Shown one piece after another: positions 1 to 62,600 of a stretch of 64,000 nucleotides of DNA. Every line of letters starts with the position of its first letter. Within the stretch, counting starts at the first letter, position 1. Both the position numbers and the translations under genes were made by a program. This stretch comes from Corallium rubrum. Lineage: Eukaryota; Cnidaria; Anthozoa; Scleralcyonacea; Coralliidae. The notes below the pieces were generated by a model. That model was not told the DNA's origin. It did not search any database and worked only from the letters and a program-made list of their open reading frames with translations. The DNA lies in contig OZ036002.1 in the NCBI GenBank assembly GCA_964035015.1, forward strand, positions 6,404,143 to 6,468,142, in the 5' to 3' direction.

Positions 1-1733
1 AGTGAGAACTGTATTGTGGTAAATGGCAAACAGGCTATAAAGATGCCTAAGGAGGGTGATAACACACTCACATTCATCAACCACCGTAAGCAGCTTGAGG
101 TACCTCTCGTTATATATGCTGACTTTGAAGCTTTGGTGATGCATAATAACACACCTAGTAAAGATGACAGTGAGTCCTACACACAAGAGTACCAGAAGCA
201 TGTAGACTGTGGGTTCTCATATAAGGTGGTATGCTGTGTTGACGATAGCTTTAGTAAACCGGTTAAGGTCTACAGAGGTGAAAAGGCTGTCTATAAGTTT
301 ATGAAAAAGATGCTGAAGGAGGTGGCCTACTGCCAGAGTGTTAAGGAGAAATTCTTCAATAAAGATATGACCATGACTAAGGATGAGATGGATGAATATG
401 AAAAATCAGTAGAGTGCCACATATGTAATAAAAGTTATGTAGACTCAGATGTGCGGGTTAGAGATCACTGCCACATCACTGGGAAATATAGGGGATCAGC
501 CCATAGCAAATGTAATATGATTTACAGGATTACTGATAAGATACCAGTAATCTTAAATAATCTAAGGGGTTATGACAGCCACTTCATAATGCAGGAGATA
601 GGTAAATTCGGAATGGATATAAATGTGATACCTAACAACATGGAGAAGTATATGTCATTCATGCTGGGCCGACATCTAGTGTTCATAGATAGTCTCCAGT
701 TCATGTCCAGTGCTCTAGGACGACTTGTTGACAACTTACCTAGGGACGCTTTCGTAATAACGTCTGAGGAGTTCAAGGGTGAGAAGTTCGATCTGATGAC
801 TCGCAAGGGAGTTTATCCATACGACTATATGAGCAGCTCTGAAAAGTTCGATGACACCTGCTTACCAACAAAGGACGAGTTCTATAGCGCCCTGAATAAT
901 GAACACATCTCTGAGAATGACTATGCACATGCCCATAAGGTTTGGAGAACCTTCAGACTGGGTAATATGGGAGAATACCATGACTTGTATATGAAGTCAG
1001 ATGTGCTGCTGCTGGCTGATGTTTTTGAAAACTTTAGGAAGACCTGCCTGCAGTACTATAAGTTGGACCCATGTCACTACTTCTCCAGTCCCGGGTTGTC
1101 CTGGGATGCGATGCTAAAAATGACTGGAGTGGAAATTGAACTGATGACTGATATAAACATGTTCCAGTTCATAGAAAAGGGTATGAGAGGTGGAACGTCA
1201 TATATCGCTAACAGGTATGGGGCGGCTAATAACAAGTATATGAGAAAATATGATGATAGTCTACCTAGCAAGTACCTTATGTACCTGGATGCCAACAACC
1301 TTTACGGATGGGCCATGAGTCAGTACCTACCGACCGGTGGATTTAAGTGGCTTCCGGACGTTGACACAGTGGACTTGAGTAAGTATGGTGACGAGTCTGA
1401 CCGTGGACTTATACTTGAGGTTGATCTGGAGTATCCGGACGAGCTTCATGAGAAACATAACGACTTTCCTCTAGCACCGGAAAAGCTTAAAGTCGAATCG
1501 GATATGTTGTCTGACTACTGCCGCAGCATAAAGGACAAGTATAACATATCAATAGGAACAGTGCATAAACTAATCCCAAACCTAATGGATAAAACCAAGT
1601 ACGTTATACATTACAGGAATCTACAGCTGTACACGGAACTGGGGATGAAGATAAAGAAAATCCATAGGGTGCTAGAATTCGATCAGTCACCATGGTTAAA
1701 GCAGTACATCGATTACAACACTCAGAAGAGGGC
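1..1733 (+). CDS. Polinton-type family B DNA polymerase, 5' part, interrupted by an insertion
   Basis: Protein-primed family B DNA polymerase (DNA_pol_B_2 type) of a Polinton/Maverick or adintovirus-like element. The frame is open at base 1, so the true start lies upstream. Numbering from the codon at base 16, I see the Exo I motif YADFE (Asp36), a zinc-binding endonuclease VII-like insert at residues 133-167 (CxxC, then DHCH, then CN), Exo II around NLRGYDSHF (182-190), Exo III as Y325-x3-D329, and polymerase motif A at D425 (YLDANNLYGW). The frame stays open into the inserted element and stops at 1782, but residues after base 1733 belong to the insertion. Motifs B and C lie on the far side of the insertion. 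The gene is broken as it stands. The family assignment is firm; Polinton versus adintovirus cannot be settled, because no integrase, ATPase or capsid gene is in the window. Confidence 0.85.
1728..1733. repeat. 6-bp target site duplication, left copy
   Basis: GAGGGC lies immediately before the left end of the palindromic element and recurs immediately after its right end at 7853-7858. A 6-bp duplication is the size known for Polinton integrases. Confidence 0.8.
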
Positions 1734-1786
1734 AGTAGATAACCCCCCCCATATAGCGTACAAAGGGATGCCGCCTCATTAAATAT

Positions 1787-2812
1787 TCGGTGTGACGCCC
1801 GGTGGTGTGACGCCCGAAGGGTCTGAATTGGCAGAGACAACTGCTCTGGTGAAACCTGAATATTATTTGAATAATATGGAGACTTTGAATATTATATTAG
1901 TTAGAACCTAAATGATCAAACAGTCTTATACACGTTTTGTGGCAATAAGTGTTTAGAGAGTTATCGTTTACTTTGGCCTAGTTTGTAGAGGAACGAAACA
2001 GAAATGGATAGAGACACTTTATATTTTTTATCTTAAACCTGGAATTTAGCGGGTTTTTGGTTAAGTAATCTGAGTGTTATTTACGAAGAGATGAATGTTA
2101 ACAGTTTTGGTCGAATTATCGCTTATCTAACCCTAGTGTATAGAGTATACGAATCCTTGGATGAAGAATCAATTCGAGAAGCCGTAAGAAGAACGATTTT
2201 AAGTGTGGAAATATAAACCCAAAGCGCTTTATTACTTTGAAAGCGTTGCTACGCTTTCTGTTGCTACGGCTGATATTTGCGTATTTATCCTGAGTGCACG
2301 TGCAGAGCACAAAAGGGAAAGCTCGTTAAAGTTACTAATGACCTAAATATAACCGGTTGTGTGACGCCCGGTGTGACGCCCGAAGGGTCTGAATTGGCAG
2401 AGACAACTGCTCTGGTGAAACTTGAATATTATTTGAATAAGATGGAGACTTTGAATATTATAATAGTTAGAACCTAAATGATCAAACAGTCTTATACACG
2501 TTTTGTGGCAATAAGTGTTTAGAGAGTTATCGTTTACTTTGGCCTAGTTTGTAGAGGAACGAAACAGAAAATGGATAGAGACACTTTATATTTTTTATCT
2601 TAAACCTGGAATTTAGCGGGTTTTTGGTTAAGTAATCTGAGTGTTATTTACGAAGAGATGAATGTTAACAGTTTTGGTCGGATTATCGCTAACCCTAGTA
2701 TATAGAGTATACGAATCCTTGGATGAAGAATCAATTCGAGAAGCCGTAAAAAGAACTAATCTTAAGTGTCGAAATATAAAGGCAAAGCGATTTATTACTT
2801 TGAAAGCGTTGT
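1787..2812 (+). repeat. Tandem direct repeats of about 566 bp inside the left arm
   Basis: The stretch beginning GTGACGCCCGAAGGGTCTGA near 1806 recurs near 2372 and both copies continue in parallel for about 450 bp. A more diverged part (CAGTGCACGTGCAG, GTTACTAATGACC, ATAACCGG) recurs near 3293. The mirror copies are at about 6780-7800. Confidence 0.8.
2098..2213 (+). pseudogene. Decayed coding module, copy A (mirror copy about 7375-7490, minus strand)
   Basis: Translation gives a run ending YRVYESLDEESIREAVRRT followed by a stop. Related modules follow in the same arm at about 2665-2790 (same peptide with a 5-bp deletion upstream), 2904-2951 (NEESILKAIRTFLSV) and 3085-3236 (VNDALNEETVRQAVRKT, with one upstream stop). 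Differences between copies are largely synonymous or conservative, as expected of former protein-coding DNA. I do not recognise the family. The region is no longer an intact gene. Confidence 0.5.
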
Positions 2813-3084
2813 TAGGTCAACTGGAGTACAAACGGAGTAAGTCATCCTAGAATCACTGCTAACTAAACCCTCGTTTATAAGTGAAGAAATCGAAAGAAGA
2901 TAGAATGAGGAGTCAATTCTAAAAGCCATAAGAACGTTTTTAAGTGTCGATATATAAACGAAATATTATTTGGCTGCGGGACGGCTGAGTATCGACTTGA
3001 ATTAATAGCATACATGAATATTATATTAGTTAGAACTTAAATGACCATCTTTAACCATTTACTTGGAGATAGGTACCGAATTGT

Positions 3085-3236
3085 CGCTTATTAGGCTTTA
3101 GTTTATAAAGTAAATGATGCCTTGAATGAAGAAACCGTTCGGCAAGCTGTTCGAAAGACATTGAATCATTTTCTTCAGAGGGGCTTGCCAGAATATAAAC
3201 TGTCAAGGGTTAAACGGCTGACTCGGCTATTTTATT
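3085..3236 (+). pseudogene. Decayed coding module, copy D (mirror copy about 6356-6507, minus strand)
   Basis: The most diverged copy of the module, readable as YRIVAY, a stop, then ALVYKVNDALNEETVRQAVR and onward to a hydrophobic end RLTRLFY. It aligns residue by residue with copy A (RIIAYLTLVYRVYESLDEES) although the codons differ. Unknown function. Confidence 0.45.
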
Positions 3237-3465
3237 AACGTCGTCAAGCATCTTGTTAATGTTGCTACGGCAGATATTTGCGTATTTATGCTCAGTGCAC
3301 GTGCAGGAGACAAAAGAGAAAACTCATTAAAGTTACTAATGACCAAAACATAACCGGATTTGCATATAAGTAGAATATTTAATTCATTTTAGGGGTGATC
3401 ATGAGTTTTTTGGGAATAATAAGGGGCCTGAAGAGGTACTAATATATGGGCAAGTTTAGGCGAAA

Positions 3466-4060
3466 AAGTTAGTCTTAGGACTATAGTCTTAGTTTTAGGA
3501 CTATATAGTCTTAGTCTTAGGTAGTCTTAGTCTTAGGAATATATAGTCTTAGTCTTAGGACTATTATAGTCTTAGTCTTAGTGTTAGGACTATATAGTCT
3601 TAGTCTTAGGACTATAGTCTTAGTCTTAGGACTATATAGTCTTAGTCTTAGGACTATATAGTCTTAGTGTTAGGACTATATAGTCTTAGTCTTAGGACTA
3701 TATAGTCTTAGTTTTAGGACTATAGTCTTAGTCTTAGGACTATAGTCTTAGTCTTAGTCTTAGGACTATAGTCTTAGTCTTAGGACTATTATAGTCTTAG
3801 TCTTAGTGTTAGGACTATATAGTCTTAGTCTTAGGACTATAGTCTTAGTCTTAGGACTATATAGTCTTAGTCTTAGGACTATATAGTCTTAGTGTTAGGA
3901 CTATATAGTCTTAGTCTTAGGACTATATAGTCTTAGTTTTAGGACTATAGTCTTAGTCTTAGGACTATAGTCTTAGTCTTAGTCTTAGGACTATAGTCTT
4001 AGTCTTAGGACCATAGTCTTAGGACTATATAGTCTTTGGACTATATAGTTTTAGTCTTAT
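3466..4060 (+). repeat. Satellite of CTTAGTCTTAGGACTATA units, left arm
   Basis: Tandem array of short units (AGTCTTAGTCTTAGGACTATAT and length variants). The complementary array fills 5525-6112 in the right arm. No coding content. Confidence 0.9.
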
Positions 4061-4228
4061 AATCACCCCAGGGGTAACCCCCAAACACCCCGGGGTACCC
4101 CAATCACCCCTGGGGTAACCTCCAAACACCCCCGGGACACCCCATGGGGTAGCCCCCAAATTCCCCCGGGGTAACCCCAAACACCCTAGGGGTACCCCAA
4201 ACACCCCAGGGGGTAATCCCAAACACCC
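4060..4228 (+). repeat. GC-rich block with GGGGTACCCC-type palindromes
   Basis: Repeats of CCCAAACACCCC and GGGGTAACC with embedded self-complementary cores such as GGGGTACCCC and CCCCGGGG. The mirrored block is 5357-5527. Cytosine runs on one strand and guanine runs on the other give G-quadruplex and i-motif potential. Confidence 0.8.
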
Positions 4229-4750
4229 CCTTTCTCCTCCTCCTCCTCCTCCTCTTCTCTCCTCCTCCTCCTTCTTTCTCCTCCTCCTCCTATTCTCCTC
4301 CTCCTCCTCCTCCTCCTCCTCCTCTTTCTCGTCCTCCTCCTCTTTCTCCTCCTCCTCCTCTTTCTCCTCCTCCTCCTCTTTCCTCCTCCTCCTCTTTCTC
4401 CTCCTCCTCCTCCTCCTCCTCCTTTCTCCTCCTGCTCCTCTTTCTCCTCCTCCTCCTCCTCCTCCTCCTCCTCCTCTTCTCCTCCTCCTCCTCCTCCTCC
4501 TCCTCCTCTTTCTCCTCCTCCTCCTCCTCCTCCTCCTCCTCCTCCTCCTCCTCCTCCTCCTCCTCCTCCTCCTCCTCCTCCTCTCTCTCCTCCTCTCTCC
4601 TTCTCCTCCTCCTCCTCCTGCTCCTCTTCTCCTCCTCCTCCTCCTCCTTCTCCTCCTCCTCCTGTTTCTCCTCCTCCTCCTCCTCCTCCTCCTCTTTCTC
4701 TTCTTCCTCTTTCTCCTCTTTCTCCTCTTTCTCCTCCTCCTTCCTCCTCT
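4229..4750 (+). repeat. Polypyrimidine (TCC)n tract facing a (GGA)n tract
   Basis: About 520 nt of almost pure C+T, matched by 4842-5356 of almost pure A+G on the same strand. The pair sits directly either side of the 37-nt loop. The long low-complexity open frames over it (RRRR, EEEE, GGGG) are artefacts of the repeat. Confidence 0.9.
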
Positions 4751-4777
4751 TAAAATGTGTATTTTGGTAGCGTTTTC

Positions 4778-4814
4778 ATCAACATCTCTATTTGATAGGC
4801 AGTGTCTAAATGAG
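4778..4814. other. 37-nt loop at the centre of the giant palindrome
   Basis: The only unpaired stretch of the element. It is bounded by TATTTTGGTAGCGTTTTC ending at 4777 and its complement starting at 4815. Confidence 0.85.
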
Positions 4815-7800
4815 GAAAACGCTACCAAAATACACATTTTAAGAGGAGGAGGAGGAGGAGGAGAAAGAGGAGAAAGAGGAGAAAGAGGAAGAAGAGAAAG
4901 AGGAGGAGGAGGAGGAGGAGGAGGAGAAACAGGAGGAGGAGGAGAAGGAGGAGGAGGAGGAGGAGAAAGAGGAGCAGGAGGAGGAGGAGGAGAAGGAGGA
5001 GGAGGAGGAGAAAGAGGAGGAGGAGGAGGAGGAGGAGGAGGAGGAGGAGGAGGAGGAGGAGGAGGAGGAGGAGAAAGAGGAGGAGGAGGAGGAGGAGGAG
5101 GAGGAGAAAGAGGAGGAGGAGGAGGAGGAGGAGGAGGAGGAGAAAGAGGAGCAGGAGGAGAAAGAGGAGCAGGAGGAGGAGGAGGAGAAAGAGGAGGAGG
5201 AGGAGAAAGAGGAGGAGGAGGAGAAAGAGGAGGAGGAGGAGAAAGAGGAGGAGGACGAGAAAGAGGAGGAGGAGGAGGAGGAGGAGGAGGAGAAATAGGA
5301 GGAGGAGGAGAAAGAGGAGGAGGAGGAGAAAGAGGAGGAGGAGGAGGAGGAGAAAGGGGGTGTTTGGGATTACCCCCTGGGGTGTTTGGGGTACCCCTAG
5401 GGTGTTTGGGGTTACCCCGGGGGAATTTGGGGGCTACCCCATGGGGTGTCCCGGGGGTGTTTGGAGGTTACCCCAGGGGTGATTGGGGTACCCCGGGGGT
5501 GTTTGGGGGTTACCCCTGGGGTGATTATAAGACTAAGACTATATAGTCCAAAGACTATATAGTCCTAAGACTATGGTCCTAAGACTAAGACTATAGTCCT
5601 AAGACTAAGACTAAGACTATAGTCCTAAGACTAAGACTATAGTCCTAAAACTAAGACTATATAGTCCTAAGACTAAGACTATATAGTCCTAACACTAAGA
5701 CTATATAGTCCTAAGACTAAGACTATATAGTCCTAAGACTAAGACTATAGTCCTAAGACTAAGACTATATAGTCCTAACACTAAGACTAAGACTATAATA
5801 GTCCTAAGACTAAGACTATAGTCCTAAGACTAAGACTAAGACTATAGTCCTAAGACTAAGACTATAGTCCTAAAACTAAGACTATATAGTCCTAAGACTA
5901 AGACTATATAGTCCTAACACTAAGACTATATAGTCCTAAGACTAAGACTATATAGTCCTAAGACTAAGACTATAGTCCTAAGACTAAGACTATATAGTCC
6001 TAACACTAAGACTAAGACTATAATAGTCCTAAGACTAAGACTATATATTCCTAAGACTAAGACTACCTAAGACTAAGACTATATAGTCCTAAAACTAAGA
6101 CTATAGTCCTAAGACTAACTTTTTCGCCTAAACTTGCCCATATATTAGTACCTCTTCAGGCCCCTTATTATTCCCAAAAAACTCATGATCACCCCTAAAA
6201 TGAATTAAATATTCTACTTATATGCAAATCCGGTTATGTTTTGGTCATTAGTAACTTTAATGAGTTTTCTCTTTTGTCTCCTGCACGTGCACTGAGCATA
6301 AATACGCAAATATCTGCCGTAGCAACATTAACAAGATGCTTGACGACGTTAATAAAATAGCCGAGTCAGCCGTTTAACCCTTGACAGTTTATATTCTGGC
6401 AAGCCCCTCTGAAGAAAATGATTCAATGTCTTTCGAACAGCTTGCCGAACGGTTTCTTCATTCAAGGCATCATTTACTTTATAAACTAAAGCCTAATAAG
6501 CGACAATTCGGTACCTATCTCCAAGTAAATGGTTAAAGATGGTCATTTAAGTTCTAACTAATATAATATTCATGTATGCTATTAATTCAAGTCGATACTC
6601 AGCCGTCCCGCAGCCAAATAATATTTCGTTTATATATCGACACTTAAAAACGTTCTTATGGCTTTTAGAATTGACTCCTCATTCTATCTTCTTTCGATTT
6701 CTTCACTTATAAACGAGGGTTTAGTTAGCAGTGATTCTAGGATGACTTACTCCGTTTGTACTCCAGTTGACCTAACAACGCTTTCAAAGTAATAAATCGC
6801 TTTGCCTTTATATTTCGACACTTAAGATTAGTTCTTTTTACGGCTTCTCGAATTGATTCTTCATCCAAGGATTCGTATACTCTATATACTAGGGTTAGCG
6901 ATAATCCGACCAAAACTGTTAACATTCATCTCTTCGTAAATAACACTCAGATTACTTAACCAAAAACCCGCTAAATTCCAGGTTTAAGATAAAAAATATA
7001 AAGTGTCTCTATCCATTTTCTGTTTCGTTCCTCTACAAACTAGGCCAAAGTAAACGATAACTCTCTAAACACTTATTGCCACAAAACGTGTATAAGACTG
7101 TTTGATCATTTAGGTTCTAACTATTATAATATTCAAAGTCTCCATCTTATTCAAATAATATTCAAGTTTCACCAGAGCAGTTGTCTCTGCCAATTCAGAC
7201 CCTTCGGGCGTCACACCGGGCGTCACACAACCGGTTATATTTAGGTCATTAGTAACTTTAACGAGCTTTCCCTTTGTGCTCTGCACGTGCACTCAGGATA
7301 AATACGCAAATATCAGCCGTAGCAACAGAAAGCGTAGCAACGCTTTCAAAGTAATAAAGCGCTTTGGGTTTATATTTCCACACTTAAAATCGTTCTTCTT
7401 ACGGCTTCTCGAATTGATTCTTCATCCAAGGATTCGTATACTCTATACACTAGGGTTAGATAAGCGATAATTCGACCAAAACTGTTAACATTCATCTCTT
7501 CGTAAATAACACTCAGATTACTTAACCAAAAACCCGCTAAATTCCAGGTTTAAGATAAAAAATATAAAGTGTCTCTATCCATTTCTGTTTCGTTCCTCTA
7601 CAAACTAGGCCAAAGTAAACGATAACTCTCTAAACACTTATTGCCACAAAACGTGTATAAGACTGTTTGATCATTTAGGTTCTAACTAATATAATATTCA
7701 AAGTCTCCATATTATTCAAATAATATTCAGGTTTCACCAGAGCAGTTGTCTCTGCCAATTCAGACCCTTCGGGCGTCACACCACCGGGCGTCACACCGAA

Positions 7801-7852
7801 TATTTAATGAGGCGGCATCCCTTTGTACGCTATATGGGGGGGGTTATCTACT
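4815..7852 (-). repeat. Right arm of the giant palindrome
   Basis: Mirror of 1734-4777 with all the same blocks in reverse order, ending in GTTATCTACT just before the right-hand GAGGGC copy. Confidence 0.9.
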
Positions 7853-7858
7853 GAGGGC
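7853..7858. repeat. 6-bp target site duplication, right copy
   Basis: GAGGGC, identical to 1728-1733, directly after the right end of the element. Confidence 0.8.
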
Positions 7859-8711
7859 CCATGCCATGAATGCGTTTGAGAAAGACTTCTTCAAACTAAT
7901 GAACAATAGCATCTTCGGCAAGACTATGGAAAACCTTAGGAAAAGGGTTGACGTTAGGCTTGTGACCAGTCCCTACAAACTACTTAAACTAACTTCTAAG
8001 CCAACATTCGTAAGTAGCAAAATATTTAATGAGAACCTGGTTGCCGTACATAAAATTAAGGAATGTCTGACACTGAACAGACCCGCCTTCGTTGGGATGT
8101 GTATACTGGACATGTCCAAGACCTTGATGTATGACTTCCACTACAGATATATAGGAAATCTGTATGGTTCTGAGGCCAGGCTACTTTTTACTGATACCGA
8201 TAGTCTACTATATGAGATATCTGCTGGGGATGTGTATAAAGACTTCCACTCTGACCGTGATAAGTTTGATAACAGTGACTACCCCGTGGACTCTGAGTAT
8301 CACTTCACAGAGAATAAGAAAGTCATAGGTAAGATGAAGGATGAGGCAGCTGGAACTCCCATCACGGAATTTATTGGGTTGAAAAGTAAGATGTACTCTT
8401 ACTTGAAGGACAATAATAAAGGAGATAAAAAGGCTAAGGGAGTCAAGAAGTCTGTCATAAGTAAGAATATAAAACATAACGACTATAAGGACACGTTACT
8501 AGAGAAAAAGCAGCTCAAGCACAAAATGAAAACTATAAGAAGTGTACGCCACCAGCTGGGTTCCTACGAGGTCAACAAAATTTCGCTCAGCTGCTTCGAC
8601 GATAAAAGGTATATACTAAATGACGGTGTCAGTAGCTATGCCTATGGGCATAAACTCATCAGGCCCCTTGATGAGCGGTTTTACAGGATAGGGTTTGCCT
8701 TTATTGACTGA
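7859..8711 (+). CDS. Polinton-type family B DNA polymerase, 3' part
   Basis: The C-terminal part of the same polymerase, resuming in the same reading register as the 5' part when the insert and one duplicate are disregarded. It begins with the conserved run leading to motif B (KLMNNSIFGKTMENL), then has motif C DTDS at 8193-8204, the KxY-type motif (GLKSKMYSY) and a stop at 8709-8711. No frameshift or premature stop is visible outside the insertion, so the host copy looks young. An open frame that appears to start at 7746 reads out of the element and is not the real start. Confidence 0.85.
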
Positions 8712-21000: not shown

Positions 21001-24000
21001 GCCCACAATATTGGTTTTAATGCTGAGCTTATACAGACGTGTTGTTGCACAAAACTATACACGCATGCATTGCTGTATTGTTTCCACAGATTTTTCTTAA
21101 AATTCTGTAATTAATTATTATTATAGGGAAGCAGTTGGAAAAATTGGAATTTACAGTAGTTTTCCCTTACTCCCATTTTTCCATACTCTTCTTCTTTCTT
21201 TCTTCTTTCTACTTTTTATTTTTATAGTAAAGAATTAATAGTCATAACAGTCATTTTAAAACTATTCTGCACCACAGCCTACATGAAAATCTTCAAAGAA
21301 AGAATGGATTTAGATATACAGTCAACTCTCGTTATAGCGGACACCCTGGGGGCCGTCATTTGGTGTCCGTAATAACGAGAGTCCGCAATAGTGGGATGCG
21401 ATGAAAATATCCCGATTTCAGGTTGTAAAATGTCACTACAATGTATTACTGCTTTTTTGTTTTAAAATATCCAGTTTATTTCAACTTGTAGTTGACGTTT
21501 ACTGTGATACATAAATACACAGTACAAGTCAAAATACAAGTCAAAAATTTGTATTCAAATATTTTTTTTATTCCAAAACCAAAAATACAACGGTAACATG
21601 AATCAGTAACATAAATTTGTCACTCGATAAATTAAAAAGTCATTCACTTTCATGTGTCGAGAGAAAAATACGTGCAAGGTGTCCGTTGTAACGAGAGTAG
21701 AACAATAAAAATGTTTGTTGGGGACCACATGAAGTGTCCGCAATTCCGTAATAGCGAGAGTCCGTAATAGCGAGAGTTATTTCAATACATTTCATAGTAG
21801 TTTCGGCCGGGGATTTACCAACTGTCCGTATTAGCTGGGTGTCCGTAATAGCGGGGTGTCCGCAAGGCGAGAGTTGACTGTAGACATATATTCTAACTAT
21901 TATAGTGCAGATTGAAATAAGTACTAGTATTTTATTACATTCTTCTTCAGGCGGTGAACACAAACATTCAAACGTTAAATATTGGCCATAATCGTCTAGG
22001 AAACGACGGCATTCGTAATCTGCAGATTGGATTATTAAAAAATAAATCTATTTTAAGACTTGGATTGTTGAATACGAAAATTACTGCAGAAGGTTGGTTT
22101 AGTTTATTTTGTCTTTTTGTTGAGGGGAAATTAAATAATAAATATTCTTTCTTGGATCATTTTTTAACAGACAATTTTAGACCTATTTAATAGACTTATG
22201 CATGGACGTAGACATACTTAGACCTACAGTACTTGGACCTACTTAGACCTACTTCGACTTGCTCAGACTTTTTCAGACCTACTTAGACCTACGTAGACCT
22301 ACTTAGACCTACTAAGACTTACTCAGACCTACTTAGACCTACTCAGACCTACTCAGACCTACTCAGACCTACTCAGACCTACTCAGACCTACTCAGACCT
22401 ACTCAGACCTACTCAGACCTACTCAGACCTACTTAGACCTACTCATACCTATACCATGCCTAAAATTAGGCTAGTACTTTCACATTTTTTTTCTTATTAC
22501 CGTTAATAAGGTAATTAGGGTTTGCGTGGAAATGTGCTACATGTAATGGTATTGGTGTGCATCTTATACATGCGTGCAATACACACTTGGTTTTCTTGCA
22601 TGTGTATGCAATGTTTACTTAATTTCCTTGCAACTGAAATGTTCCCTTAGTTTCTCTTCGTTGAAATATTTACTTAGACTCTCAGTTTTCCCTTATTGAA
22701 GGGAAGCGATGAACACTCCAAATTTCTAATAGATTGCATAATAATATATAGCATAATATAATAGCAATAGAGTAATGGTAATAGGTAATAAGGTAACACT
22801 GAACAGCTTTACATATAACACATGTAGCAAAATAAAGCAATAGAGTAATGGTAATAAGGTAATAACAGCTTTACACATAACACATGTAGCATAATATGTA
22901 TATAGCAATAGAGTAATGGTAATAGGTAATAAGGTAATAACAGCTGTACATATAAAACACGTGTAGCAAAATATAGCGATAGAGTAATGGTAATAAGGTA
23001 ATAAGGTAATAACAACTTTACATATAACACATGTAGCATAATATCACAATAGAGTAATGGTAATAAGGTAATAACAACTTTACATATATAACACATGTAG
23101 CATAATATCGCAATAGAGTAATGGTAATAAGGTAATAAGGTAATAACAACTTTACATATATAACACATGTAGCATAATATAGCAATAGAGTAATGGTAAT
23201 AAGGTAATAAGGTAATAACAGCTTTACATATAACACATGTAGCATAATATCGCAATAGAGTAATGGTAATAAGGTAATAAGGTAATAACAACTTTACATA
23301 TAACACATGTAGCAAAAGAGTAATGGTAATAAGGTAATAAGAGCTTTACATATAACATATGTAGCATAATATAGCAATAGAGTAATGGTAATAAGGTAAT
23401 AACAGCTTTACATATATAACACATGTAGCATAATATAGCAATAGAGTAATGGTAATAAGGTAATAAGGTAATAACAACTTTACATATATAACACATGTAG
23501 CATAATATAGCAATAGAGTAATGGTAATAAGGTAATAAGGTAATAACAACTTTACATATAACACATGTAGCATAATATCGCAATAGAGTAATGGTAATAA
23601 GGTAATAAGGTAATAACAACTTTACATATATAACACATGTAGCATAATATAGCAATAGAGTAATGGTAATAAGGTAATAAGGTAATAACAACTTTACATA
23701 TATAACACATGTAGCATAATATAGCAATAGAGTAATGGTAATAAGGTAATAACAACTTTAAGTCGGGCAATTTCCGTTTCAGTCGGGCAAAATGTTCTTT
23801 GCCCCCCTATAAATTTGTACCCGTACGCCTATGTTTGATTTCTTTTATTTTTCTTGTGGCTTCAAAAAGACATGTAACAAGAAAGAATGCGGACATTCTT
23901 ATATCGCAAAAATGTTTGTCAATTGTCATTGGCGTCAAATTTTCTTCCCATTATTTGTTACCACTAAATAGTTCATATAAGGCGATTTAAAATAATTATG

Positions 24001-27000
24001 AAAAGCGCACAGACAGGTAAAGAAGTTGACACAATTTCATGTCCGCTTCGCGGACCTATTTCTGTATTTGCAATGAATTGGACAAATCTTGAGGAAGCTG
24101 GAAGCCCACTTTGTATAAAATGTTAATGTTACCATTCAAACTAAAGTTTTTCTCAGTAATTGTGGGAAATAAAGATGGTTGAAGTTTCTCGAATCATCTT
24201 CATTTTCCTTGAATGCACACTAGAAATGCTATGCAACATTATCCCATACCTACTACAATGAAATACATGTGCAACTTGATTGATGACTGTTAGTTTTACT
24301 ATTTTTGAATGATACTTGGGCGGTTGGTATGTAGGTTTTCTTAGGCAGTCAAATTGTATTTCTTGAACATCTGTAAGCCAAATAGCAAATACAGTACCAG
24401 TATCCACATGTATGCAAGCACGTACCTATCTTTTGATTTATCGTGATTTCTTTTGTTCATATGATTTTTTTAATGATTTTTTGTAATTTTTATGAAGGTT
24501 GTATGCGATTTAAATCAGTGCTTTTCCCCTCGTATCACATTATCGTGATTGTTTACATTCTACAGTATAGGCCATAAATTTCTTCAGTAAATGATCGATG
24601 TGATCGTTACTCTATTGCTATTATATAATGCCGGCTACACGTGTTATATGTAATGCTGTTATTACCTTATTACCTTATTACCATTACTCTATTGCTATAT
24701 ATTATGCTACATGTGTTATATGTAAAGTTGTTATTACCTTATTACCTTATTACCATTACTCTATTGCGATATTATGCTACATGTGTTATATGTAAAGTTG
24801 TTATTACCTTATTACCTTATTACCATTACTATATTTTGCTATATTATGCTAGGCTACATGTGTTATATGTAAAGTTGTTATTACCTTATTACCTTATTAC
24901 CTTATTACCATTACTCTATTGCTATATTATGCTACATGTGTTATATGTAAAGTTGTTATTACCTTATTACCATTACTGTATTGCTATATTATGCTACATA
25001 TGTTATATGTAAAGTTGTTATTACCTTATTACCTTATTACCATTACTCTATTGCTATATTATGCTACATATGTTATATATGTAAAGCTGTTATTACCTTA
25101 TTACCATTACTCTATTGCTATATTATGCTACATATGTTATATGTAAAGCTCTTATTACCTTATTACCATTACGCTTTTGCTACATGTGTTATATATGTAA
25201 GTTGTTATTACCTTATTACCTTATTACCATTACTCTATTGCTATATTATGCTACATGTGTTATATGTAAAGTTGTTATTACCTTATTACCATTACTCTAT
25301 TGCTATATTATGCTACATGTGTTATATATGTAAAGTTGTTATTACCTTATTACCTTATTACCATTACTCTATTGCGATATTATGCTACATGTGTTATATG
25401 TAAAGTTGTTATTACCTTATTACCATTACCATTACTCTATTGCTATATTATGCTACATGTGTTATATATGTAAAGTTGTTATTACCTTATATATATTATT
25501 ATGCAATCTATTAGCAATTTGGAGTGTTCATCGCTTTCCCTTCAATAAGGGAAAACTGAGGTCTAAGTGAACATTTCAACGAAGAAAAACTAAGGGAACA
25601 TTTCAGTTGCAAGGAAATTAAGTAAACATTGCATAAACATGCAAGAAAACCAAGTGTGTATTGCACGCATGTATAAGATGCACACCAATACCATTACATG
25701 TAGCACATTTCCATGCAAACCCTTATTACCTTATTAACGGTAATAAGAAAAAAAATGTGAAAGTGCTAGCCTAATTTTAGGCATCATTTGCTCATACCTA
25801 TTCAGACCTACTCAGACCTTCTCAGACCTACTCAGACCTACTCAGACCTACTTAGACCCACTAAGATTTACTCAGACCTACTCAGACCAACGTAGACCTA
25901 CTTAGACCTACTTGGACCTACTCAGACCTACTTAAACCTACTTAGATTTACTCACACTTATTTACTGCAGACTTACTTAAACTAATCTCAGCAGTTTACC
26001 ACATTTTCACTTTGCTCTATCTAAAACACTGCCTACGAAGCACTCTGCTTTTTTCCTTAGCCAAGAACAACTGTTTGTTACAAGACCAATCGATGTACGT
26101 AAATCTAAGTCGTAAATCTTCGTACAGCTGGTTAGATCAAGCTAAACTTACTTTGACCACAGGTGCGGTTGCTCTGGCTGAATATATTGCTGACACGAGA
26201 AGTCTTTTACGACTGGACTTGCGAGAAAATGATCTTTTTGTTGGTGGTCTAATGGCGTTGACACTGGCAGTCAAAATAAACGAGACTGTAGTGAGAATTG
26301 ATCTCGATAAAGACCTAAAGAAAGAACAGGTCGGTTGCTTGCTGAAGGACTTTTATTTCGCTAGTGGGGCTTACCGTGAATGTTCGATTTAGCGCCGCGG
26401 CGCTTATTAAAATTTGCAATCTTTTGGTGCGGCGCTTAATCGAGAGCGGCGCTTATTAAAAAAGTTAACAAAACGCTCATAACACAACTTTAATTATCCA
26501 TAGAAAAACCCAATAAATTTAACCCAATAATTTTCATAATACCCAATAGCACAATAAATTCAAAAAAGAACGTCAACGTCCTGGTCATCGCCTTCTTTAT
26601 CGTCGTCTATCCGTAGATGTGGATCAGAGGCATCTTCGACATCTGAATCAGAGACTTCAAAGGGATTTGTGTCCGGCTCTTTTAGGATGGACAGCTGCGA
26701 TCGAAGTACCTCGCGACCTTGACCGGCGAAAAACTCCAGTGATGTATTAAAGATATGTTGATATGTTAGCGTATCGGCGCTTATTTAATTATCCTGCTTC
26801 TGGATGCGGCGCTTAATCAGGAGCGGCGCTTAATCAGGAGCGGCGCTTAATCAAGAGCGGCGCTAAATCGAACATTTACGGTATTCAACAACAGGTGTTT
26901 AGAGAGGGCCTGTATGCATTATAGTTAAAGTGCCTCTATGGACTGTGGGATCTTTACATATTTAAATAACTTAGGTTAAAAGAAAATGGTTCATGAAATT

Positions 27001-31625: not shown

Positions 31626-34741
<3,116 letters not shown>

Positions 34742-43519: not shown

Positions 43520-46500
43520 TTAACAGTCAATCTTCGTCACTTCTTTGATCCATTTCTTAAAGCGAGAAACTCTTGTGTACACGCCATATTTATAAGCAAT
43601 GGCGCAAGCATCATGTCCAAATGACGAGATCCCATGAAGATACCACTTGCCTTTTCCTTCACACAATAATGGACCTAGTGGGTTATATTACAGAGAGAGA
43701 AAAATACTTCAAAAACCCATTAATAGTTCATGAGGAAAACACCAAGAAAATTGGTACCCTGTCCGTGGTAAAAAAATCCTGGTGATAAAAAATCCTCCTG
43801 ATTTACATAAACTTTAGCTTTAATTCAGTTCTTGACTTAGACAACGTTTTTTAAAATGAATGCGCCAGTGAATTTACCAAATTACTATTGTTGTTGCTAG
43901 TGTTGATGTTGTTGCTGGGTCGTTTTTGAAACTATTCAAAACGCTCATAGTGCCGTTGTGTTTTATTGCTTTGTGTTTTATGTCCGATAAAGCACTGCTG
44001 CATGTTAAATACTACATAAATACACAAATCAAGAGTAGCGAAAACGGGAGACACCATTTTTCTCGATTAAAGTGCCTTTTTTTTCTGACTGAAAGTGCCC
44101 TAAATCTTCACTGTGCATTGCTGAATTTTATCATTAAATGCAAAATATTCTTAGTAATCTTCAAGAATTTATCCTAATACCTCCACTATCTCCTTCGCAA
44201 GTGTCTCTTCCTCCTTGCTCAAACCCAGCACACACCATATTATCTGTGATGACACCGCCATATGACGGGCCCTGGTTACACTTCTCTCTCGAAACTAGAG
44301 GAACGGCAGCATGAAGCAGCCGAGGTTCTGTGGGAGCATGAAGTTTTTTATTTCCCCAACCAGCTATGTAACAGTTTTTACCTAAATCAAAATAGAACTA
44401 AAGTTTTAGTCTACAAGCTGTACAAGATATACTATTTTAAATATTCATTTTAAATATTTATCATATCCCGAACCCGGGAGAAAGGCCGAAGCTTGTGACG
44501 AGGATGCTAATCTCGCCTTGCACGGAGTCGACCACTTACACGTGAAAGTATTTTTATCCAGTATTTCGAAAACATTTTTGACATTGCGTTTTTGTTTGTG
44601 CGTCAACATGTTGTGACATCATAGCGGTCATGAAGGAAGTTGTGACGTCATAGCGGTCATGAAGGAAGTTGTGACGTCATAGCGCGGTCATGAAGGGAGT
44701 TGTGACATAGCGGTCGTGGAGAAATTTGTGACGTCATAGTGGTCATGGGAGAAGTCGTGACGTCAGTGGTCACGAAGGAAGTCGTGACGTCATAGCGGTC
44801 ATGAAGGAAGTTGTGACGTCATAGCAGTCATGAAGGAAGTTGTGACGTCATAGCACACTGCCTGTATGTGGAACTTAACTTTTAAACCTAAATATAACCT
44901 TGGTAACTTTACTTACCAGCAATAAATTCATCAACGCCAGAATCGATGCAAACCGGAGATGTTCGTGCATCAATTTTTGCTGCCGTACTTAGTTCCATTA
45001 AAGCAATATCGTGTTCAGCATAAAGAGCTATTTTACCAGTCACATTGTGCTTGCCCACACCAATTCCGAACGACGGATTGGATAATACTCTTGAAATTGG
45101 AATGTCTTGCTCAAAACCATCTTTCGTGTTAAGATCATGTTCTCCTGACCGAACCTAAAGAAGAAATTTGAGACAGTCTTTCATTCTATGAATTCTTCAA
45201 TTCTACGAATTATTTAATTCTGTCAGTTTTTTAATTCTATGAATTCTTTAATTCTACGACGCTTTTTTAATTCTGTGAATTGTTTAATTCTACGAATTAT
45301 TTTATTTTACGAATTGTGTTATTTTATGAATTATTCAATTTTACGAATTCTTCAATTTTATGAATTATTTAATTCTACGAATTGTTTAATTCAATGAATT
45401 CTTACGGAGAACGTCTGTGGAAGCGCGTTTGCACAATGAGCAGCCGTGGCTATCCATTTATCCGAAAGAAGTGTTGCGCCACATTTAAAATACGGTTTGG
45501 GATTCGGTCCTCCTGGGATGTGAAAAAGTGCGACCATCCACGGCCATTCTCCTGCAACAGCTTCTTGTCCTCCAACGATTCTCTTGCTCGAGTAAATCGT
45601 AGCAGGCTTCTTACCACAGTCGACGTTTACTAAAGGCCAATGAAATCAAAATCAGAGAAAACTGGATTGTTTTTCTGTCTGTCTGTCTGTTTTATTAAAT
45701 TTATAAAGTGGTATTGAAAAGGTTAAATATGTAAATATATGTGCATGTTTCAGTATGGCATATAAGTACCCTAGAAGTCGTTAACGCGATTCAAAAGAAG
45801 TACAATTAGATGGTCTTTGCTAAACATAAATACATTTAAAGTGTCTATGAAGTGAAAAATTCGTTGGCATTTTTGTTGTTTTATTGTACAGAGAAGCATG
45901 ACAGAAGCACTTACTGAAAATTTCAAGAGAATCTGATGCGTAGTTTTCGCGCTATCAACTCTCAAAATTTGCCGTGGATAGTTTGTTTTGGGGAAATTTG
46001 GGCTTCTTGGTAACAATGCCTTATGACGTACGCAGATGGATCATTAATAGTGAAATCTATTGTTCTTATGCATAGTTGTCCATCTGCGTACGTCATATAT
46101 AAGCATTGTTTCCGAAAGCCCAATTTTTCCTCCAAGAACGAACTAGCCATGGCAAACTTTGAGAGTTAATTGCGCGAAAACTACGTATCAGATTCTCTTG
46201 AAATTTTCAGTGAATGCTCCTGCCATGCTCCTCTGTACAATAAAACAACAAAAATTCCAACGAATTTTTTATTTCATGGACACTTTAAGCTACAAAGTTT
46301 AGACGTTTCGGCTGAGATTTCATTCATCAGTGAATGCCAAACTAAAGCATGATCAACATCATGACTAAAACAAGACGGTGCATGTATATTCTTACTCTGT
46401 TTCAAGGTGAGGCAATATTCGGGCGACATTTTTCTTCAACTTGCAACACAACTTTAAAGTTGCGTTGCAAGTTGAAAAGCGTTCAGTGTTGCACGTCTTC

Positions 46501-55360: not shown

Positions 55361-56637
55361 GTCTATTGGGGTAGCCCCCACGGCATCCCACCTGTTACGC
55401 CTACCATTTCAGCGCAGTTTAAGTTTTATTAAAGAAAGCTTATTGTCAATTGAATTGAACAAAGATATTTTCGACTCGGCTTTCTTTTCGAAATTACAAT
55501 TTGAAAACATTGCGTCGTCATGAATACACAATGGAGAGCCTCAGTCCATAGCATTTACAGTAAACCATTTCATAATCGGGGTTTTTAAAAGTTAAAAATA
55601 GTTGTAGAGTATTCTCACTTAACAATAGTAAGATTTTTGTGGTCTGCACGAATAAATTTTGGATATACAAATATTACCGGAAGTTATGCTGCATCTCCAA
55701 CTTTTTTTCGCTAACAATATACCATAAACCAGGATGACATTTGTAAGAATGTATTAACTGGGCACTTAATTCCCCCCCCCCCCCTGTGTATAAACCTGAA
55801 AGAATTAAACTAGGAAAAATAAAAAAAATTTTAGGATTTAATTTTTGTGTTTTGTGGATTAAATTTTGGTGAAGCCAAACACAGGGATGTGGTGTCTTTA
55901 AAAATCAAAATACTGAGAAAAGGGGTGTACTGCAATAGCTTTGAAACCTTGCTCTGTTGTAGAATGAAAATATTGGGGGTGTTTTTCTCTTGTTTAATTT
56001 AGGCAAATAGTAAAAAAATTATATTCTGTTGTTATGCTGTTTCAGACTACAAAACACACACAAGTTTGCAAGACACAAATAACTAACATTGTAAAAAATG
56101 TGATCTTGTTTTAGACCAAAAGAGTTTATAATATATACATATCACCTTAAAACAATGCCTTCGGGGGGGGGGGGAATCGATGCTCGTAGAAGTCTTTTTG
56201 GTGTATGTTATTGAGTGAGATTGCGGTGACAACGAGGCCCAAATAAAGAAATTGATATACATGCACAATCATTTTGGTTTGAGAATTCCTGTTTAGACCA
56301 CCGGTTTATTCATTGATTTTGACGCTCTTTTACTTTTATTTTACCCTCGGATATAACACAGAGAAATACGTATGGATTAGATAAATAAATGAAAAGAAAT
56401 TTAGCGTTTTGAGGCGAGAGAAAAGAGGTGATTCAATGAATTGAATGAAAGCCAAACTTCAACTTGGGAGCAAGAACTGTTAAGAGTTTCTGTTTCAGCA
56501 ATATCAGTTATTTCTTTTGATGGAGTCAACGAGTGTCACATTGTAGTATAAAACGGAGGTTTTTCATCCGTTCTTCACGCACATTTGGAGTGTTTTTATG
56601 TAAACCTACTTGGAAGAAGGAAGGAGTATTTTTAAAA
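55361..56637. other. Intergenic upstream of HECTD1
   Basis: No gene seen. C and G homopolymer runs lie at about 55771-55784 and 56164-56174. This region should contain the HECTD1 promoter and 5' UTR, but no core element could be assigned with confidence. Confidence 0.4.
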
Positions 56638-59600
56638 ATGGTGGACGTTGATCCAGATACGTTATTGGAATGGTTGAGTATGGGGCAAGGAGAAGAGAGA
56701 GATATGCAACTAATAGCACTAGAACAACTGTGTATGTTGTTGTTGATGTCAGATAATGTCGACAGGTGTTTTGAAAGGTAAAATCATGTCTTAATCTCAA
56801 TGTATTTTATAGTTTCTCTTTTCTTTACCTTCAATAATTCGTAGATATTGAAAGTGTGTTTTTTTTTATAACTAAAGTGAAATTAATATAAGTAAGTTTT
56901 GTGGAAACACCACGTAAAATATTTCTTTGCTATTTCTTTCTAAAATATTTCTTTTCTTTTCAAATAATTAAAGTGAAATTGTTAAATCATGTTGCCACAG
57001 TATATTAACAATAGTTACTCTACCCTGTCCAATATTATTTGTTATGTAATAGACTTTGTTATATTATTCAATAATTTCTACATTTTCAATATTTTATTTG
57101 TTCATATAGTATCTAGTTGATAATTTGAGATGGAAATTTTTTATATCTATAATATTTCTCATACATGTATTCTCTTAGCTAGAAATACATCTTATTGAAT
57201 GGCTTGACTGATAATACAGCCACGTGTTTTATGAGTTTCAGTTCTAAAAGCTGTGTCTTGAAATGGTGGGGAAATTTATACTAGAAGCAGTACATTGGCT
57301 AGCCATTCAATTGATAATTTATTTATTGCTGTCAGAGTAGAGCTGGCCAAAAATGGTCCCTTTATTGTTTTAATCTAACACCAGATGATTTACTCATCAA
57401 AGAGAGAACCCTCAGATATCGAAGGCAACAATGGGTTAATATGACTCTATATGTTTGATTTCGATGAATTATGAAATTACAAATTAGTTTTCCCAGGATA
57501 TACAGTGTATTTGCCTGTAGTAGGAATAGTGATGTCATTGTCATGTGCATAATGATATATACAGTACACTGGTGCCAAAGCAAAGATTGAGTATTTACAT
57601 ACCCAAGGGCTGCAATTGTATTATACACTTGTTGACTGGTGCTGAGGGAAACATTGAGTTTTACGGACCTGAGGGCTTCAATGTCACCCAAGGGCTTTAG
57701 CCTGAGGGTGGCATTGAAGCCTGAGGGACTGTAAAACTTGATGTTTCCCAAGGCAAAAGTCAACAAGCATTTTGTTATATACCAAAGACTTTTAAAATAC
57801 AAAATACCAAGTTGACTCAAAACTTGTAAAATGCAAAAAGACTTACCAAAACACTTTGACTTTGTCTTTGTAATTTCAATTCAACTAAACAAATACACCA
57901 GACTCAACAAGTACAAAGAACAGATTTAAATTTATCCAGGTTTTCTTCAGACTTTCTTTGAAGATATGTATAGATATTCTTTCCTTTGGAAAATGGACTA
58001 TTTCGTACCAAACAGGCTCGAAACAGCTCTTGTTTTCAAAATGTTCTGAAAAGTCCAAAGTTCTTAATCTGATGCAATAATCATTGTGTATTCACGTGAA
58101 CAATGCATGATTAAAGCTGACGTCAGAGGGAAATATTGCACTGTTTCCTTCTTCGTTGTTGACGTCAGAGGAAAACAGTGCAATGTTTCCCTCAGCAGAA
58201 AGAAACATGGAGTTTGTTGAACAACACGTGACCATGATTTGACCAATAGGATTTCATCTTTGCCAAATGAAAGTCTTTGGTATATAACAATAAATTTTAT
58301 CCCTTTTCCCTTCAGGCAAAAATGTGATAAACTTCTGAGATTTTTAAAGATATTGCATTGGATTAACAAATAACATTTCTGTTCTCTGTAGTTGCCCTCC
58401 CAGGGTATTTTTACCAGCACTTTGCCGTGTTTTTCTTGATGAAAGTGCTCCAGAAAATGTCCTTGAAGTGACTGCTCGGGCCATCACATATTATTTAGAT
58501 GTATCTGCCGAGTGTACGAGAAGAATCGTTACTGTTGAGGGAGCTGTTAAGATGTTATGTAATAGATTGGTGGCTGTTGATTTGCAATCTCGTACCAGTA
58601 AAGATCTTGCTGAACAATGCGTCAAGGTTTGTTAATAATTTAGCTGTAGTTGTACTAGATGGTGTTATGATGTAGCATTGCTTTGGTTTGGTAGTTCGTT
58701 ATCTACATTGATGTACTCTAAGTTTTAAGAAAGACTGCTACATTATCATAGTATTGGTAATATAATATATATATAATATACAATGCATGGTGTACATGTA
58801 CAATGCAATGTACAATGCCATGTGCAATGAACAATATACAGACAAGCCAAGATACAATGCGCAGTTACACATACAGTACTGCTCAGAAATAACCTAACAG
58901 TGCGGTTGAGGTTAAGTTAAACAATGATAGAAATGGTAATAAACTTCAGTAAATCACAATAAAATTATCTAGTAATGCAGAAAACAGTCCATATTTTGAT
59001 TCATAGTGATTTAGAGACAGTTTAACACTGAACAAAGTTATATTATGATGAAGCTGAGGTTAAACCTAGGTTTGACCTCTGTTTTTGTTAGGTTATTTCT
59101 GAGCAGTACTGTAATACATAATGCACAGTGTCTAATATACAATATAGGGTATTATTATACAACTGCATTAAAAACTGTCCAAATAACGCTAACAATGAGT
59201 ACAAATATACAGCGATATTTGGATAGTTAGTTATTTGGATTGTTAGCCAATCAAATTTGTCACATGGGAGACTACTTCATTTATGCTTATTATTTTGTCC
59301 TGGTGCAAGTCACGCTACTTCTCTGGCCTTTTTAGAGTTTTCTTTTTCCATAAAAATTTGTTGATCAGAGCAGTTGTATAATATGTGGGCTCATCAAAAT
59401 ATGGCACAACTCGTAAAAAATATACAGCGATACTACACACCAAAACATCTAATAAGAGATATATATATATAATATACAGTATGTACTGTACTGTACTATA
59501 CTGTAAGAAGTAAGTACTTATAACTCACCATTGTGACATCACAATTTGCGACGTAGAACTAAATCAAATACTGTACTATAAGGGCAATGTACTGTACAGT

Positions 59601-62600
59601 ATGAGTAGCTGCCTTGTATTAGATATTGAAACTCAAACAATTACATATAATATATGTATAATATATATTAACTATAACTAGGTGTTGGAGTTGATGTGTA
59701 CTCGTGAAGCTGGTGCTATTTTTGATGCTGGTGGCTTACAATGCACCCTGACATTTATCAATGAATTTGGAACACATGTGCACAAGGATACACTTCATTC
59801 ATCAATGTCTGTTGTATCTCGCTTGTGTAGCAGAATGGAACCTCAGGATACGCAACTCGAGACTTGTGCACACTCGCTTTCAACACTCTTGAAACATGAA
59901 GATGCTTTTGTAAGTATTTTAGCAATATTAATGTCATGCTTTGAAAGCACAACCAGGATTAAAATGTCTGGATCTGAACTGGCATTTTGATGCCAAAGTG
60001 GGCAGAGTGATTTCTAAGATTTCAATTTGGTCAGAAAACATCCAACAACTCTGTGACTGTTTTACTTAGCCCATATAAATAATGTAGGCTGCCATAACAT
60101 AAAAATATATTGGCTTTTCCTTTGTAAGGTTTCTGATAGTGCATTGAGGTGTTTTGCGTCTGTTGCTGATCGTTTCACCAGAAGAGGAATGGATCCAGCA
60201 CCATTAGCAAAACATGGCTTAATTGATGAACTACTAGAGAGGCTGGCCAAGGCAGGAACATCAACAAATGACAGACCAACTGGAAATGGTAGCACCCCTG
60301 ATGTGAAGAATGTCAGTCCATCAGTGACTACGGTTATTAGTTTGTTATCAGCATTGTGCCGTGGCTCTCCAGTTATTACTGAGGTAGACAATTGTTTGAT
60401 TATTACAATTAATTAACCCTAAGGTGTCCTAGGCCTGTTTGTGATATTGATGGTGATGATGCTGACAGTGATGGTGAAGGTGGTGGTGATAATGATGGTG
60501 TGGGTGTAGGTGATAGTGATGATGGTGATAATGATAGTAATTATGATGATGATAATGATATCGTGATGGTGAAGGTGGTGATGATGATGATGATGATGGT
60601 GAAGGTGATAGCGATGATGGTGATAATGATGGTGATGATGGTGTTGGTGATAATGATATGGTGATGGTGAAGGTGGTGATGATGGTGAGGGTGTAGGTGA
60701 TGTTGATGGTAATGTTGATGGTAATGATGGTGATGATGGTGTTGGTGATAATGATATGGTGATGGTGAAGGTGGTGATGATGGTGAGGGTGTAGGTGATG
60801 TTGATGGTAATGTTGATGGTAATGGTGGTGATGATTGTGACTGAGGGTATAGGTGATGGTGATGATGATGGTGGAGGTAAAGGTGGTGATGGTCTATGTG
60901 ATGATGGTAAAGGTGGTGATGGTGTGGGTGTAGGTGGTGATGGTGTAGGTTATGAAGGTGATGGTGAAGGTGATGATGGTAAAGGTGATGATGAGGGTGT
61001 AGGTGATGATGATATATAATCTTTATAAAATCTGAAATCATTACATTTGTTACTTCTTTAGTTGCTCCTGCATTCCCAATTACCTGAAGCAATTGACAAA
61101 GCATTACAAGGTGATGAGAGATGTATCTTGGACACCATGAGACTTGTCAATCTCCTCCTGGTATTACTCTTTGAAGGAAGAAAAGCTTTGCCCAAAGCAG
61201 GTTTACTGGCTTCTCCTGGCTCTATGCCAGGTCTTAAAAGAATAGACTCGACTGCTGATAGATCTCATCGACAATTAATTGATTGTATCAGAAGTAAAGA
61301 CACTGATGCTCTTACTGATGCTATTGACAATGGTAAGTTGCTTTCAATTTTGATATAGATTTTGTGTAGGATTTTGGGAAGGGGGACACCACATATTATT
61401 ACTCATATATTATTATTTAATATATAATAACCGAGGCAAAGTCGAGGTTGTTCACTGAGTCTGAGGTGAATAATTGTTTTAGTATAAATACGCATTTTCG
61501 TACTTTTAGGAACAGCATTTTCTTTAAAATTGTTAATTTCCTTGTCTGTTGCATTGAGAAATTGGCTGGTGGCCATGTTGAATAAATGCTGTAGGTGATT
61601 ATCGAGAATCAGTCTGAAGTAGCTCGACCAATCAGTGCACGCGATTTTCTATAATCACCTGTGTATACTAACTTTCTGTAGAAACACCATGTAAATTTTT
61701 TATTTGCTAAGCTTATAACTAATGTTTTCTGATATTTATTTTTAAGGAGGTTTTGAAGTTAACTTTATGGATGATGTTGGACAGACATTGCTTAACTGGG
61801 CATCAGCATTTGGAACTTTAGAAATGGTAATTAAAATGTGGAAAGTCCACTTCAAAATCTACTGTACATTTTACATTTACAATACTGCAGTGCCTACTCA
61901 TTTTTAACTAATTACAATCTGTTTCAGGTTACTTTTGACGGAAATGTTTGAAGTTCATTCCGAAGTCAGTTGCAAGTTCGTTTTGAACTTCGCATTTGAT
62001 TGGACTAGCAACTAAGTAGCCAATCAAATGCCTAAGTTCAAAACGAGCTTGTGAACTTCGTAACGAACTTCGAACATTTCCGTCAAAAGCAACCTGAAAC
62101 TGACTGTTGAAATACACCCAGCTTGAAAGTTTTCACTCCACATGTATACCCCTGTAAACCCCATACAAACTAAAACCAATGTTGCTAATTAGTTACAACC
62201 ACTAGTGGATGTATACTCTTCTGATGCAACCACTAGTGCTTGTAACTAATTAGCATCTCAATGTCCCAAAGGGATTTTTACTATTTATTCATTTCACAAG
62301 TTGTTTACAACACTCGCGTCCTTGTATTGAATATACCATCACTCGCCTTCGGCTCGTGATTGTATATTCAATACAACACGGCCGCTCGTGTTGTAAACAT
62401 CACGTACAACACATTACAGTTTTGTTCTGAAACTGTGCGTTACTGGAATCGTAAAGTTTTAATGATAGAAAAGTATGTTTATGTTTGTCACAAATAGTGC
62501 CACCAGTTTTTTCACGCTAAACTGTCTGATATGCAAAATTCACCAACCATTGTGTTTTTGTTTTTTTTTTAGGTTGAATTTTTATGTGAAAGAGGTGCTG

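Follow-up and report, generated by a model that had tools for sequence, protein, structure and literature searches.

We analysed a 64,000-nucleotide stretch of DNA from Corallium rubrum (contig OZ036002.1, positions 6,404,143 to 6,468,142, forward strand), referred to throughout as the window. Near its start, at positions 1734 to 7852, lies a palindromic element that is flanked by a 6-base-pair (bp) duplication and interrupts a DNA polymerase gene. We conclude that this element is probably a non-autonomous, palindromic satellite of Polintons, also called Mavericks. It would have arisen by fold-back of extrachromosomal DNA, been propagated intact, and been mobilised in trans.

An earlier note on this DNA described a 6.1-kilobase (kb) near-perfect palindrome, with AG..CT ends and a GAGGGC duplication, and alignment of the arms bears this out. 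Between positions 1734-4777 and 4815-7852, 3010 of 3051 aligned columns are identical, with 21 mismatches and 20 gap columns. The whole-length inverted self-match of the palindrome is 98.9%. Outside positions 4257-4741 the arms differ only at 2311, 4050 and 4087, and the remaining sites of difference fall within a polypyrimidine tract. The real arms comprise inverted pairs of 587 nucleotides (nt; 100%) and 1922 nt (97%). Shuffling the two non-repetitive outer arm parts by mononucleotide 100 times gave no exact inverted match above 22 nt. The termini read AGTAG...CTACT, with outer sequence AGTAGATAACCCCCCCC and its complement, and the element terminus is AGTAGATAACCCC. The parts of the element are listed below.

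1728-1733, no strand: left copy of the target-site duplication GAGGGC, a direct 6-bp repeat.
1734-4777, plus strand: left arm, 3044 bp, from the arm alignment.
1734-1816, plus strand: terminal segment in common with the Polinton terminal repeat (AGTAGATAACCCCCCCC...), about 83 bp at 91.6%.
1734-2356, plus strand: terminal 623 bp, 99.7% to the (grafted-looking) right end of the Polinton at C13:1563365-1577138.
1950-2198, plus strand: relic, similar to Bcl-2/E1B-19K, of a Polinton gene (42% over 83 residues).
2634-2690, 2689-2823 and 3077-3199, plus strand: further Bcl-2-like relics of the left arm, from protein matches.
2359-2811, plus strand: second copy of the subterminal block 1790-2248, 95% identity.
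3469-4060, plus strand: tandem minisatellite with a unit of about 22 nt, TTAGGACTATATAGTCTTAGTC, from repeat inspection.
4230-4745, plus strand: (CCT)n polypyrimidine tract, limits set by eye.
4778-4814, no strand: loop of 37 nt, the putative fold-back junction bounded by TTTTC/GAAAA, from unfolded relatives.
4815-7852, minus strand: right arm, 3038 bp, an inverted copy of the left, from the arm alignment.
6388-6510, 6764-6898, 6897-6953 and 7388-7636, minus strand: Bcl-2-like relics of the right arm, from protein matches.
7853-7858, no strand: right copy of the target-site duplication GAGGGC, a direct 6-bp repeat.

The arms also hold G+C-rich short repeats. With 13 query proteins, the coding traces detected in the palindrome were short matches to a single Polinton open reading frame (ORF), four in each arm and eight in all. 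This parent ORF has Pfam matches to E1B-19K and Bcl-2, both below the curated cut-offs. The earlier note had also stated that the element has no polymerase or integrase of its own. Consistent with this, neither Polinton protein of the same genome matches the palindrome.

Relatives of the element were sought by comparing its terminal 200 bp with the 474-megabase assembly, a search that the earlier note had proposed. At least 53 matches, in at least 26 loci including the window, were obtained. Note that the best 40 of 1570 first-look candidates were scored, and copy number is a lower bound. The other 25 loci were examined in stretches of up to 10 kb, and negative results for genes apply to these stretches as fetched. 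Among the loci, 24 are satellites (one, L024, is counted on 286 bp only), and L017 and L019 are part of elements bearing Polinton genes. Used as queries, the Polinton polymerase, integrase, protease and presumed capsid proteins found no match in any of the 24 satellite loci (E 1e-4). Inverted arms are present in all 22 loci that were mapped. The window element, L010 and L013 are complete palindromes, and L022, L026, L032 and L033 have shorter arms around a unique middle.

The search returned copies with unlike flanks, and a perfect 6-bp duplication is present in 18 of the 19 satellite loci with two recognisable ends. A single recognisable end was seen in five loci (L014, L020, L024, L029 and L030). 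Between loci, flank-to-flank similarity was absent among 43 flanks of 24 loci, both at 1e-8 with a low-complexity filter and at 1e-5 without it. Within loci, left and right flanks are dissimilar in 12 of the 19 two-ended cases. For L016, L018, L027, L031 and L033, the two flanks share direct-orientation similarity that spans 180 to 390 nt. Hence, these copies sit in tandem repeats, and their frequency (5 of 19) perhaps indicates a target preference. The flanks of L032 share a 42-nt direct match and those of L023 a 36-nt inverted match. In addition, the left flank of L032 (positions about 1-500) matches satellite sequence, so L032 probably lies within a further member of the family.

The flanks bear on whether the palindromes are artefacts of assembly or library preparation, generated, for example, when a missed hairpin adapter produces mirror-image reads. 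Artefacts of this kind do give near-perfect palindromes, and our evidence is assembled sequence. However, they predict mirrored flanks. Instead, 12 of the 19 flank pairs are unlike, six match in direct orientation, and one (L023) has the 36-nt inverted match; no pair is mirrored at length. The same arm-specific indel also recurs at four loci, as described below. We find an artefactual origin scarcely credible.

The earlier note expected the satellite termini to resemble those of an autonomous Polinton in the same genome. A gene-bearing Polinton with the same ends is indeed present at C13:1563365-1577138 (adjoining parts of our loci, L034 from 3366 to its end and L017 1-8139). It is 13.8 kb long, with GTCGCC on both sides. 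Pfam matches to DNA_pol_B_2 (2e-43), rve and chromo are all above cut-off. Pieces of a packaging-type ATPase match that of L019, which itself has an above-cut-off match to Pox_A32. One ORF resembles the solved viral cysteine protease S273R (E 1.6e-5), and the Polinton also carries a Bcl-2/E1B-19K-like ORF. Published accounts give the gene content of Polintons (PMC4028283, PMC4046053). They also describe vertebrate Mavericks with (AG)3//(CT)3 or (AGT)2//(ACT)2 ends and 6-bp duplications (PMC8097293), and state that rve integrases typically generate 6-bp duplications (PMC12220804).

The two ends of the C13 Polinton relate differently to the satellite. At the left end, the first 83 bp or so are in common, at 91.6%. 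At the right end, 702 bp of satellite-type end, including 623 bp with a 99.7% match to the window, lie outside what is apparently the Polinton's own terminal repeat, here without its first nine or so bases. The right end looks to carry a grafted satellite end. The satellite arms may therefore not be an inverted copy of the Polinton right end.

A hybrid element was found at C1:5378681-5389784 (L019 from 501 to its end, plus L035 1-2784). It is 11.1 kb long, and has GACAAC on both sides. One side consists of a satellite-type end and a satellite ORF; the other has an integrase, a Bcl-2-like ORF, and a Polinton-type end. Matches to the polymerase, protease and presumed major capsid protein were not found in the two loci of the hybrid. 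As the C13 and C1 elements show, satellite and Polinton DNA have recombined, which suggests that both meet as replicating molecules. Viral contigs were also scanned, using an ATPase alignment together with the Polinton integrase and the satellite ATPase, and no relative could be confirmed.

Long, internally repetitive inverted arms are also a feature of Foldback and Galileo in Drosophila, which duplicate 7 bp of target. Potentially, then, the satellite is a non-autonomous transposon from another DDE superfamily, with ends that resemble a Polinton or were pasted onto one. With its gene-free arms the satellite resembles Foldback/Galileo, Galileo being a member of the P superfamily (PMC3573991), and the right end of the C13 Polinton has the look of a graft. 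Furthermore, our gene searches covered Polinton proteins, with no search aimed at other transposases. Unlike Foldback and Galileo, however, the satellite has 6-bp duplications (18 of 19) and Polinton ends. About 80 bp, at 91.6%, are shared with the other end of the C13 Polinton and also with the C1 hybrid, on its Polinton side, and the duplication length is the same. Comparable ends and 6-bp duplications occur in vertebrate Mavericks (PMC8097293), and longer satellite members encode a packaging-type ATPase. A Foldback-like origin is, in our view, quite unlikely.

How might a Polinton satellite become a palindrome? The loop sequence of the window is found, unfolded, in L014, L015, L016, L019, L026 and L030. 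In these unfolded relatives, TTTTC is on one side of the loop sequence and GAAAA on the other, forming a 5-nt inverted repeat. In the window, L009-L013, L018 and L020, the sequence turns at TTTTC/GAAAA and continues as an inverted copy of the other arm. Set against its unfolded relatives, the centre of the window element reads as a snap-back junction. A 3' end folding back on its own strand, followed by extension, would leave such a junction. L030 turns at GCTTAAA/TTTAAGC (7 nt), which are 282 nt apart in L015, L016, L025 and L026. L025 turns near TCAA/TTGA (4 nt), within a longer imperfect match, as judged by eye. These two centres look to be independent. Among 400,000 random fold-backs, 1.8% have at least 4 nt, 0.6% at least 5 nt and 0.056% at least 7 nt. 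L015 and L016 have a common, more complex centre with a jump. Note that this analysis of short inverted repeats covers the window's loop group, L030 and L025, with L027 and L028 left out.

Two other routes to a palindrome were considered. First, the palindrome could have formed in the chromosome, when a break at short inverted repeats was repaired by inverted duplication, and been mobilised later. Short inverted repeats at the turn are likewise expected from such repair. However, the Polinton end must then be put outermost twice, and at several different centres, which is the natural outcome for a linear replicon that starts copying at its ends. We therefore consider a chromosomal origin unlikely. 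Second, an internal-deletion derivative could have acquired very long terminal repeats, grown by gene conversion, with no fold-back synthesis. Such a history fits L026, L032 and L033, with their long arms around a unique middle. It does not fit the window element, L030 and L025, which turn at short inverted repeats of unfolded relatives so that the loop is the intervening sequence. Growth by gene conversion is very unlikely.

Eight loci (the window, L009-L013, L018 and L020) have the window's loop in common. Among 14 outer arms (1737 bp) of these copies, 25 of 1748 alignment columns are variable, ends included. A 1-nt deletion at arm position 580 sets one arm apart from the other in L010, L012, L013 and the window element. 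This indel is on the same side of the loop in all four copies with unequal arms, including L012, which is inserted in the opposite orientation. The arms of L009 and L011 are equal at this position, and a single arm was compared for L018 and L020. Because the asymmetry between arms is inherited, the copies derive from copying of whole palindromes, rather than a fresh fold-back each time. The palindrome thus propagates as a unit.

Polintons are believed, chiefly from the genes they carry, to replicate as linear DNA with protein priming. The following scheme would account for the satellite. Polinton-type DNA with one end only, while replicating extrachromosomally, would fold back at the 5-nt inverted repeat. 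The folded DNA would then be copied into an inverted dimer with the same end at both termini, each of which would bring an identical replication origin and integrase site. Put simply, forming a palindrome would supply a one-ended fragment with a second origin, so that each end has one. The founder would multiply as an intact palindrome and be inserted at new sites, with 6-bp duplications, by the polymerase and integrase of autonomous Polintons in the same genome. Since the satellites have Polinton ends and duplications, and no match to a polymerase or integrase, supply in trans is the simplest account. The earlier note proposed a satellite that borrows Polinton machinery. The shared ends and 6-bp duplications agree with this; we infer the borrowing itself, namely that Polinton polymerase starts on satellite ends and Polinton integrase inserts the element, along with the extrachromosomal fold-back.

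Longer satellite members carry a gene for a packaging-type ATPase. For 12 intact ATPase ORFs from nine loci (broken ORFs were left out), the pairwise ratio of nonsynonymous to synonymous change (dN/dS) ranges between 0.04 and 0.27 in pairs that show both kinds of change. The satellites themselves, or else an autonomous parent that we did not see, may be where selection acted on the ATPase. Over its length, the satellite ATPase is about 63% identical to unnamed proteins elsewhere.

Several observations weigh against a Polinton satellite mobilised in trans. A matching 6-bp duplication was not found at L018, a two-ended locus with 1500 N, and the left end of L030 is not recognisable. Of the 18 duplications, 14 are outside tandem-repeat flanks and four are within them; those four count for less, since a 6-mer shared by repetitive flanks says less about insertion. 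The Polinton's own terminal repeat has only the 83 bp or so in common with the satellite, at 91.6%. Past about 623 bp, the palindrome arm has no collinear Polinton match and instead gives rearranged matches to other copies. As the C13 right end looks grafted, its 99.7% match may reflect transfer from satellite to Polinton. The C13 polymerase is split over two overlapping frames, so this copy may be inactive. The presumed major and minor capsid proteins of this Polinton have no Pfam support, and the major one also has no match among solved structures. Finally, the satellite and hybrid (L019) ATPases are only 41% identical, so an unseen helper may exist.

A more elaborate version of the satellite reading is possible, and we offer it tentatively. 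This would be a long-lived satellite lineage, for which palindrome formation is a replication strategy, since snapping back would restore two origins to whatever fragment had kept one end. In longer members a packaging ATPase would be kept by purifying selection, maybe for travel in helper capsids with a motor gene of their own, and satellite ends would be written onto helper genomes by template switching.

Like Polintons and Mavericks, the satellite has AGT...ACT-type ends, 6-bp duplications and, in its longer members, a packaging-type ATPase; about 83 terminal bp are in common with a Polinton of the same genome. Unlike autonomous Polintons, its 24 loci have no match to a polymerase, integrase, protease or presumed capsid protein, and the window element is wholly palindromic, with a 37-nt loop. 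Defective adenovirus genomes are also known in which one end is duplicated in mirror image, with an origin at both termini. The satellite is similar, as far as the adenovirus case is generally understood, in that one end of a linear, presumably protein-primed genome is mirrored. As in snap-back defective genomes, an inverted dimer turns at a short inverted repeat of the parent. The satellite differs in being chromosomally integrated, in many copies, with integrase-type duplications. Virophages and Polinton-like viruses, parasites of larger viruses, carry their own capsid and replication genes. The satellite resembles them in its proposed dependence on another virus-like element and, on this general picture of virophages, differs in having no matches to capsid or replication genes.

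Among the open-licence papers listed in literature searches, none pointed to a palindromic or fold-back Polinton derivative. The word stem 'palindrom' is absent from the accessible parts of PMC8097293 and PMC12220804, and those of PMC6431247, PMC2836005 and PMC10175614 added nothing on palindromic Polintons. Similarly, a literature search on palindromic adenovirus genomes and snap-back linear plasmids gave nothing directly useful. Fold-back junctions with Polinton ends outermost are the trace expected from linear replication that starts at the ends. If palindromes multiply with neither a polymerase nor an integrase gene, they would amount to a complementation test set up by nature. Searches for episomal Polinton DNA, and for satellites of Polintons in animals, have a concrete starting point in this family.

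The polymerase gene interrupted by the window element is in two parts.

1-1732, plus strand: upstream part of the insertion target, a DNA polymerase with an endonuclease VII domain, from the domain and relatives.
7859-8711, plus strand: downstream part of the insertion target, within ORF 7746-8711.

The downstream part has no Pfam match of its own; it seems to contain type-B polymerase motifs. By arithmetic, the phases of the two parts fit a clean insertion that duplicates 6 bp. Relatives of the interrupted polymerase, at 65-68% identity, occur in Montipora corals, some with Pfam DNA_pol_B_2, and its named relatives among the matches listed are coral proteins (Montipora, Oculina). Compared with the polymerase of the genome's Polinton, it is barely alignable (18 of 58 residues, E 1e-4). 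Thirteen query proteins from the genome's Polintons and satellites were compared with the 7 kb upstream (L036, C18:6397143-6404142), and none matched. A gene with Pfam Bro-N and VRR-NUC is there instead, with several small ORFs that have no Pfam match above cut-off. PHROGs matches are to endonuclease VII, anti-repressor and some nuclease families. The earlier note had placed the insertion in a Polinton polymerase gene. A polymerase frame is interrupted, but it is of a different lineage, with a Bro-N/VRR-NUC neighbour. The interrupted gene comes from another, probably virus-like element, which need not be the helper.

Other features of the window are as follows. At 22456-25784 there is a kilobase-scale inverted pair of minisatellite arrays, of about 85-92% identity. 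Two 450-bp copies (32663-33111 and 45836-46288) are 95% alike, each an imperfect palindrome, and this pair is probably a small foldback transposon. Finally, exon-like ORFs at 56521-61358, which point to animal DNA, are presumably the start of HECTD1.
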